From assembly GCF_000015665.1 (NCBI RefSeq), contig NC_008817.1:868001-932000 (forward strand): a stretch of DNA of 64,000 nucleotides, in the 5' to 3' direction. The DNA is from Prochlorococcus marinus str. MIT 9515 (lineage in GTDB: Bacteria > Cyanobacteriota > Cyanobacteriia > PCC-6307 > Cyanobiaceae). Of this stretch, positions 56,536 through 58,496 are shown in pieces; position 1 is the first letter of the stretch, and each line of letters begins with the position of its first letter. The notes under the pieces are model-generated. The model was not told the DNA's origin and made no database searches. It was given only the letters and a program-made list of their open reading frames with translations. A program made the position numbers and the translations under genes.

Positions 56536-56928
56536 TTATATACACTCTAGGTATTCAAAAATTTTAGACAATCTTTTAGGGTCCTTTAAAAACAACCAAC
56601 CAATTAAAGTTTCAAAACCGGTGGCTCTTGAATAAACAACAGGATCTGAGGACTTTGGAAATCTCTTTGTTTTATTTCTAGCTCGCCTTACTAAATTAAT
56701 TTCAAAAGAGTTTAACAAATGTTCTATATCATCCAATGATTTTGATTGAGCTTGAGCTTTAACTTCATTTACAACTGAAAGATGGAGTTCTTTAGACTTT
56801 AAAGGTATATGTACATGACGTAATCTTTGATGTAACTCCCATACAGAATCCCCAAGCCAAGCAAGTTGAATAACACCTATCTCATCAGGAGAACCGTAAG
56901 GTGTAAGATTTTTTATCCAATAATTCAA
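56536..56928 (-). CDS. mrnC: Mini-ribonuclease III
   Basis: Dimeric RNase III-like nuclease without the double-stranded RNA-binding domain; in Bacillus it matures 23S rRNA. The 130 residues include IQLAWLGDSVWELHQRLRH with the catalytic Asp and Glu-type positions and a KAQAQSKSLDDIEHLL segment. The start codon is TTG; it overlaps the TGA of the upstream STAS gene (TTGA), so translation is likely coupled. rlmB, also acting on 23S rRNA, follows. Confidence 0.88.
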   Translation of the reverse strand: MNYWIKNLTPYGSPDEIGVIQLAWLGDSVWELHQRLRHVHIPLKSKELHLSVVNEVKAQAQSKSLDDIEHLLNSFEINLVRRARNKTKRFPKSSDPVVYSRATGFETLIGWLFLKDPKRLSKIFEYLECI

Positions 56929-57290
56929 TTCTTCAAATAAATTAATGCATCTTCAACTGTAGCCTTCAAATGAAGAAAGTCTCCTAATCGTACTAATTTA
57001 ATAGTTTGAGCAACTCTAGAATTTCCAACCACCGAAAAACCAATTTTAAGTTTTTTGCATTCCTTGGAAGTTTGAACAAGTGCACCTAAACCTGATGAGT
57101 CAAGGAAATCAATTTTGCTTAAGTCAATTACAAATGGTTGAGGATCGTTTTTTAGGGTATTAGTAATAAAAGTTTTAAATTGCTTTTCAGAAAATGCATC
57201 TAATTGCCCTTTAAAAGTAAAAACAATAATATTTGTCTTTACTTCAATATTCCCTCTTAAGGAAACAGTTAGCTTTTGGAAATCTTCTAT
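56925..57290 (-). CDS. STAS-domain protein (anti-sigma factor antagonist-like) with non-canonical start
   Basis: An open frame of about 121 codons ends in TGA overlapping mrnC. It encodes LTVSLRGNIEV, FTFKGQLDAFSEKQFK, then DLSKIDFLDSSGLGALVQ, a STAS domain with the phosphorylatable Ser of the DSSG motif near residue 65-66, and VARTIKL-type closing helices. An in-frame TAA lies just upstream, and no ATG, GTG or TTG occurs before about residue 87. A GGAGGG Shine-Dalgarno lies 5 bp before ATC and 8 bp before ATA, so one of these must start translation. I give the ATA start. Confidence 0.85.
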   Translation of the reverse strand: MEDFQKLTVSLRGNIEVKTNIIVFTFKGQLDAFSEKQFKTFITNTLKNDPQPFVIDLSKIDFLDSSGLGALVQTSKECKKLKIGFSVVGNSRVAQTIKLVRLGDFLHLKATVEDALIYLKN

Positions 57291-57298
57291 GATTTAAT

Positions 57299-57304
57299 CC
57301 CTCC
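57299..57304 (-). promoter_or_regulatory. Strong Shine-Dalgarno of the STAS gene
   Basis: Read on the minus strand it is GGAGGG. It stands out because most genes here have weak sites. Its spacing fits ATC (5 nt) or ATA (8 nt) as start codon and helps explain how a non-standard start could work. Confidence 0.75.
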
Positions 57305-57356
57305 AAGGAAAATAAATTTATTAAATGTAATTATCAAATCAAAAAGAATCAACATG

Positions 57357-58496
57357 TCAACATCTTTCTAACATTAGAGAAACAAAATTTTCAAATAAAT
57401 AATCTGAGTCGTGAGGTCCCGGGCTTGCCTCTGGGTGATATTGAACACTAAATATAGGCTTATTTTTAAGTTTCAATCCAGCGACAGTTTTATCATTAAG
57501 GTTAAGATGAGTTATTTCAACAATTTCATTTGATAAGGAATTTGGATCTATGGCAAAACCATGATTCTGACTCGTTATTTCAACATTATTATTCATCCCA
57601 CAGGGATGATTTAAACCACGATGTCCAAAAGGTAATTTATATGTTTCCCCTCCTAATGCCAAACCAAAAATTTGATGACCAAGACAAATTCCAAACATAG
57701 GAATTTTTCCATAATTTATTAGTGATTTAGCTAAATTAATCCCATCAAGAACAGTAGAAGGATCACCTGGACCATTCGAAAAAAATATCCCATCAGGATT
57801 ATTGCCTAAAACATCTTCAAAAGAAGAATGTGAAGGCAATACCAATACCTCACATCCATGTGAAACTAATCTATTAAGAATTGATTTTTTGATACCAAAA
57901 TCAATTGCCACAATTTTTAATTTATTTTTTGTACCAATATCCTTTTTTCTTATATCAAAACTTGTCTTAGTGGTCTCTTTCCAAAAATAATTATTCTTTG
58001 TTGAAACTTCTCTTGATAAATTTAAACCATTCATATCCGGAGCATTAGAAATAAGCTTAAGACAACTATCTAAATTATTATTTTCTGAAGTTATAAGACC
58101 ATTCATCGAACCGTTAGATCTTAAAATTTTGACAAGTGCTCTCGTATCAACTCCATAAAGTCCAATAATATTATTATCAATCAGCCACTGATTTAGGCTT
58201 ATTTGGGATCTCCAATTACTATTATTATTTGAGTAATTACGAACTATTAATCCTTTAACACAGTTGTCTGATTCAGAATCTTCGAAATTAATTCCTGTAT
58301 TTCCTATCTCAGGATATGTAAATGTTAGTATTTGACCAAAATAACTTGGATCCGTTATTACTTCTTGATAACCAGTCATACCAGTATTAAAAACAATTTC
58401 GCCTAGAGTTGTACCGACGGCACCAAATGAATAACCAGAAAAAGTAGTCCCGTTACTTAAAACAAGTTTTGCATTTTTCTTAAAAGGATGATTCAT
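57357..58496 (-). CDS. carA: Carbamoyl-phosphate synthase small subunit
   Basis: Glutaminase subunit supplying ammonia to CarB for arginine and pyrimidine synthesis. N-terminal domain has GEIVFNTGMTGYQEVITDPS (32-51). The class I amidotransferase triad is Cys271 in FGICLGHQIFGLALGG with His and Glu in QYHPEASPGP near 354-362. Length is 379. carB is not in the window. It lies between trpD and the STAS gene. Confidence 0.97.
   Translation of the reverse strand: MNHPFKKNAKLVLSNGTTFSGYSFGAVGTTLGEIVFNTGMTGYQEVITDPSYFGQILTFTYPEIGNTGINFEDSESDNCVKGLIVRNYSNNNSNWRSQISLNQWLIDNNIIGLYGVDTRALVKILRSNGSMNGLITSENNNLDSCLKLISNAPDMNGLNLSREVSTKNNYFWKETTKTSFDIRKKDIGTKNKLKIVAIDFGIKKSILNRLVSHGCEVLVLPSHSSFEDVLGNNPDGIFFSNGPGDPSTVLDGINLAKSLINYGKIPMFGICLGHQIFGLALGGETYKLPFGHRGLNHPCGMNNNVEITSQNHGFAIDPNSLSNEIVEITHLNLNDKTVAGLKLKNKPIFSVQYHPEASPGPHDSDYLFENFVSLMLERC

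Follow-up and report, generated by a model that had tools for sequence, protein, structure and literature searches.

How is a gene translated when its reading frame offers no ATG, GTG or TTG until most of the protein has been encoded? This question is raised by a STAS-domain frame on the minus strand of the window analysed here, a stretch of 64 kb from Prochlorococcus marinus str. MIT 9515. Between its stops the frame (57293..56925) encodes 122 amino acids, and the first ATG, GTG or TTG appears only at residue 88. A sequence-only reading had already placed the open STAS domain right after an in-frame TAA with no canonical start before residue 87, and our coordinates agree. Read 5′ to 3′ on the minus strand, the order is GGAGGG (57299–57304), AT, TAA (57294–57296), ATC (57291–57293), ATA (57288–57290) and then GAA GAT TTC CAA. 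The TAA closes the frame upstream and a TGA (56925–56927) ends it; these two stops and the Shine–Dalgarno motif GGAGGG are read directly from the sequence. GGAGGG lies 5 nt from ATC and 8 nt from ATA, and the same spacings in the earlier reading were verified. Counted from ATA, the gene (56925–57290) has 121 codons plus the stop.

Among the stop-to-stop ORFs of at least 80 aa in the 64-kb window, 13 of 103 run past their midpoint without a canonical start. Ten of these 13, taking in all five of at least 100 aa, were inspected, and the STAS ORF was the sole one without large overlap by other reading frames. Its protein matches Pfam PF01740 (E = 3.5e-21; 75.4 bits against a cut-off of 22.6) and the NCBIfam anti-sigma factor antagonist family TIGR00377 (71.5 bits; cut-off 53.45), and its sequence matches in the PDB include SpoIIAA (1th8 and 1tid) and TM1442 (1sbo). 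The motif D64 S65 S66 G67, with its phosphorylatable serine, is invariant in the alignment of relatives. The protein thus resembles SpoIIAA/RsbV in having a STAS domain and a phosphorylatable serine, but differs from SpoIIAA in that its score falls short of the threshold of TIGR02886, the SpoIIAA equivalog.

The start codon among relatives

Genomes were searched at the level of the genus (266), the family (271, with a 90% completeness filter), the class (291) and the phylum (292), plus further sets. A STAS orthologue was found in 290 of the 291 genomes of class Cyanobacteriia, mostly as a single match each; G682 is the only class genome without a detectable one, either through loss or through a gap in its assembly. 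In the phylum-wide sample of 292 genomes, all matches at E ≤ 1e-10 belong to this class, and no orthologue was found in other classes of Cyanobacteriota. The start was then tallied over 244 non-identical loci from across Cyanobacteriia, anchored on the downstream TVSLRG motif and not on the start itself. At the position of the window's ATA, 241 of the 244 loci carry ATA, ATT or ATC (ATH; AUH in the mRNA), and the remaining three, which contain a small insertion, have their ATC or ATA one codon or four codons upstream. Overall the start codon is ATA in 117 loci, ATT in 91 and ATC in 36, while ATG, GTG or TTG occurs there in none of the 244. The codon is AUA in this strain, AUU in most cyanobacteria and AUC in many Synechococcus. 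Two loci excluded by the motif filter, L075 and L077, likewise read ATC ATA. The start is ATT in L314, which we take to be Gloeobacter violaceus, in L307 and L301, presumably Thermosynechococcus BP-1 and UCYN-A, and in a further genome that we take to be Synechococcus elongatus. Judged by codon conservation, the comparison shows the AUH codon to be the STAS initiation site, and the aligned loci indicate that this start is retained across the whole class Cyanobacteriia. The earlier proposal of a rare start was therefore real, although its Prochlorococcus-level scope was too narrow for a class-wide feature.

The proposal had left the choice between ATC and ATA open. The comparison backs AUH and makes ATA the likelier of the two: ATA is most likely the start in this strain, because the neighbouring ATC codon varies among relatives while ATA, ATC or ATT never fails at the next position. 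Across loci, the preceding codon reads ATC (94), CCC (27), GCT (23), GCC (22), GTT (13), ATT (12), GTC (8) or ACC (8), and AAA also occurs. Initiation at ATC would place the start 5 nt from the Shine–Dalgarno motif, like the ATT of most other cyanobacteria, rather than 8, and ATC is present at that place in most high-light Prochlorococcus strains. We nevertheless regard it as unlikely, since the codon is GTC, ACC or AAA in L013, L018, L034, L081, L083 and L085 (GTC in L013, ACC in L018 and L083, and AAA in L085, each then followed by ATA) and CCC or GCC in Synechococcus, and the next codon is ATA, ATC or ATT without exception. The two starts predict different N-terminal peptides in high-light Prochlorococcus, MEDFQK from ATA and MIEDFQK from ATC.

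A single transition would suffice to turn an ATG into the ATA seen here, by sequencing error or by a mutation private to the strain. However, comparison of the start region with other Prochlorococcus, which the sequence-only reading had suggested as a check, found ATA in every high-light locus, and the other cyanobacteria examined all carry ATH, in isolates, single cells and metagenome-assembled genomes alike. The chance that ATA is an artefact or a strain-specific change is negligible, and this explanation was rejected because relatives share ATA or another ATH codon.

Could the AUH start be a frozen ancestral relic that plays no regulatory role? Rare starts of other genes could persist by drift, but AUG is only one third-base change away, and of the at least 14 changes at the third base of the start codon on the gene tree, all were among A, C and T and none was to G. 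Four-fold degenerate control columns of the same gene underwent 38–75 changes and carry G in about 8–35% of loci. Since high-light Prochlorococcus contributes about 105 of the 244 loci, sampling is uneven and locus counts are not independent trials, so the count of changes on the tree, which makes up for this in part, is the fairer figure. Synonymous choice differs as well: ATA is the start in 104/104 high-light strains against 28% among the gene's other isoleucine codons, and ATT in 83 of the 92 remaining (non-Cyanobiaceae) rows against 55%, in groups that were set by motif with a few rows misassigned. The strong Shine–Dalgarno motif and the pyrimidine context described below have also been retained. 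A relic is thus improbable, and these patterns of sequence evolution show that selection maintains AUH and excludes AUG.

The leader and possible upstream starts

A Shine–Dalgarno match of at least 5 nt lies ahead of ATH in 210 of the 244 loci; when aligned, the spacing is mostly 5 or 9 nt. Positions −2 and −1 before ATH are both pyrimidines in 235/244 loci, whereas the count before the next codons ranges from 1 to 127 of 244. Work cited in PMC5622118 proposed that a dipyrimidine at these positions may signal initiation in cyanobacteria. In the window, the last two bases of ATC (57291–57293), which forms part of the leader, supply the pyrimidines at −2 and −1 of the ATA start. For comparison, the window holds 41 ATG ORFs of at least 150 aa, with starts that are mechanical longest-ORF starts and not curated; an SD-like 4-mer precedes four of them and a dipyrimidine at −2 and −1 precedes six. 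The STAS Shine–Dalgarno motif stands out because SD-like sequences are scarce ahead of ATG ORFs in the window.

Translation might instead begin further upstream and reach the STAS frame by frameshifting, or an upstream in-frame start might be joined to the ORF. An ATG, GTG or TTG does lie in the open upstream frame in 65 of the 244 loci, and 18 loci carry an ATG in frame farther up. In the other 179 loci there is no such codon between the upstream stop and ATH. In-frame stops occur at varied places, mostly close to ATH (median 6 codons away; at most 2 codons in 89 loci; at most 10 codons upstream in 149/240), and only 6 of 244 loci combine an upstream canonical codon and an SD-like match of at least 5 nt, mostly at unrelated places. 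No upstream start common to any lineage was found among the 244 loci. We consider an upstream start or frameshift highly improbable and rejected it on the ground that no lineage has kept an upstream start. Three high-light loci, L074, L172 and L195, have a TTG two codons before ATA, ahead of the ATC ATA pair; this would favour an upstream start in these strains and is possibly a recent canonical alternative.

Upstream of the Shine–Dalgarno motif lies a probable −10 element, TACATT (57324–57329, minus strand), for which promoter function is suggested by its spacing. The gap from its end to ATH is 30–33 nt here and in most Synechococcus-type loci, where the element reads TACACT, and TTTGATAATTACATTT is present at the −10 region in 97 of 107 high-light strains. 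Because this −10-like element sits about 30–33 nt ahead of the start, the STAS gene probably has its own promoter and a short leader.

Ssr1600, its published start and neighbouring genes

Ssr1600 of Synechocystis acts as an anti-sigma factor antagonist, binding and releasing an anti-sigma factor; it is phosphorylated by Slr1861, and together the two control SigC (Kurkela et al. 2025, PMC12329169). Its abundance is critical, and overexpression slows growth in high CO2 (PMC12329169). The antibody used was raised against a peptide that, without its leading C, is CLHNSLAEAIAATTEG (PMC12329169), and this C-terminal peptide, LHNSLAEAIAATTEG, is present in L240 and L275, both members of the STAS family studied here. 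The near-universal and mostly single match per genome, the mrnC neighbourhood (see below) and the C-terminal peptide in L240 and L275 together identify the window's STAS protein, by homology, as the orthologue of Ssr1600, the anti-SigC antagonist. The two belong to the same family and share the DSSGLG phosphorylation site; they differ in that the published start of Ssr1600 is a TTG that lies six codons after the AUU found here. The published residues Leu24 and Ser59/Ser60 correspond to L30 and S65/S66 when numbered from AUH, an offset of six.

If the published annotation holds (TTG start, Ser59/Ser60 numbering; Kurkela et al., PMC12329169), translation would begin at Leu7, the first residue of LTVSLRG. 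Codon 7 is indeed TTG in L277, the nearest match to the published Synechocystis sequence by this codon, on which its link to PCC 6803 rests. However, the sister Synechocystis genomes L275 and L276 have CTG and CTA there, respectively, although their leader, Shine–Dalgarno motif and ATT are identical to those of L277; the STAS match lies at 1501–1866 in these loci. Over the 244 loci codon 7 reads TTA (77), CTA (70), CTG (49), TTG (36), CTT (7) or CTC (5). Furthermore, the Shine–Dalgarno motif would lie 23–27 nt off, and residue 1 is preserved among loci, as is the reading frame through residues 1–6. A start at Leu7 is very unlikely and was rejected, as codon 7 is not TTG in most loci or in the sister Synechocystis genomes. 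The published ssr1600 start is very probably six codons too late, because the supposed TTG is CTG or CTA in sisters with the same ATT, Shine–Dalgarno motif and leader. An AUU start predicts that the N-terminal peptide in Synechocystis is AEPLNLTVSLR, if Met is removed, or MAEPLNLTVSLR. The initiation codon TTG was changed to ATG in the published constructs (PMC12329169), which would lack the first six codons and have lost the native weak start.

Downstream of the STAS gene lies mrnC (56536–56928, minus strand), encoding Mini-ribonuclease III (Ribonuclease_3 domain, E = 1.6e-19), with a TTG start that overlaps the STAS stop. Among loci with enough flank, 155/164 have mrnC as the next gene on that strand (106/106 in Cyanobiaceae and 49/58 elsewhere). 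This adjacency and overlap suggest that STAS may be translationally coupled to a ribosome-maturation gene. The carA ORF (57357–58496, minus strand) lies upstream, and in each of the 110 Cyanobiaceae loci whose flank is long enough carA occupies this place on the strand of the STAS gene. The same window also contains, some 24 kb away from STAS, the only HATPase_c_2 protein found in the genome (32469–32912, minus strand; RsbW/SpoIIAB-like; 54.4 bits). By analogy with the Slr1861/Ssr1600 pair (PMC12329169), this protein is a candidate cognate kinase.

Output from a weak start codon

How might a start that avoids AUG serve an anti-sigma factor antagonist? We consider it likely that this Ssr1600 orthologue, probably from a promoter of its own, is translated from AUH behind a strong Shine–Dalgarno motif, with the weak codon capping its synthesis. 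The mRNA would be transcribed from that promoter and translated from AUH, and the codon would hold synthesis to a fraction of AUG output. Capped Ssr1600 would in turn leave the anti-sigma kinase not titrated out. A cap would matter because the amount of SigC-type sigma factor that gets to RNA polymerase is set by the level of Ssr1600 relative to the anti-sigma kinase. Cells probably keep Ssr1600 production low on purpose, since the odd start has been kept throughout the class.

Starts of this kind are already known. IF3 discriminates against the AUU start of its own gene, infC (PMC9410913), and infC of E. coli and S. aureus (AUU or AUA) resembles the STAS gene in its conserved AUH, its strong Shine–Dalgarno motif and its avoidance of AUG. 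In S. aureus, AUU and AUA starts behind strong Shine–Dalgarno motifs give about 10% of AUG output, with ccpN reaching as much as 30% in rich medium (PMC13009471). Genes that do not encode IF3 also have AUH starts, namely E. coli pcnB (AUU; cited in PMC9410913) and S. aureus cvfC1 (AUU) and ccpN (AUA), the latter two with conserved strong Shine–Dalgarno motifs and an output limited by the start codon (PMC13009471). cvfC1 (staphylococci) and ccpN (S. aureus and B. subtilis) are found in narrower groups, whereas the STAS start spans a bacterial class and, unlike those of pcnB, cvfC1 and ccpN, alternates between AUU, AUC and AUA without AUG. What appears to be new here, from the comparison of genomes, is this class-wide range. 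No earlier report of an AUH start in the STAS gene was found in the open-access literature, which is not proof of absence.

The sequence-only reading had likened the gene to infC as an autoregulatory device. The rare codon and the strong Shine–Dalgarno motif bear out this analogy, but literal autoregulation is unlikely because the product is an anti-sigma antagonist and not a translation factor, unlike IF3 from infC. Since IF3 rejects AUH starts, STAS output may still track IF3, and control of the start by IF3 is plausible by analogy. Less certainly, IF3 availability or translation status may also steer STAS output, which would tie growth-limiting sigma activity, and perhaps the neighbouring mrnC, to the state of the ribosome. 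More tentatively still, and doubtful as it stands, antagonist synthesis might follow IF3 or 30S status throughout oxygenic cyanobacteria, so that translation capacity, together with mrnC, would set sigma choice. Of 30 cyanobacterial infC loci (L245–L274), 27 could be parsed; most have an ATG, GTG or TTG candidate near the N-terminus and a few are unclear, and no conserved AUH start was found across the 27. A shared IF3 circuit is therefore unsupported by the infC route, and feedback through an AUH start of cyanobacterial infC is unlikely, as most of the infC loci read show no such start. No obvious canonical start was seen nearby in the infC loci L264, L267 and L269.

Only a few genes in bacteria are known to prefer AUU, AUA or AUC to AUG as their start, and the STAS gene, whose product regulates growth and the response to carbon, adds one that is kept class-wide. 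The start-codon rules of gene finders likely truncate it or miss it in many genomes. The STAS start offers a simple way to ask if sigma-factor control depends on the fidelity of translation initiation.
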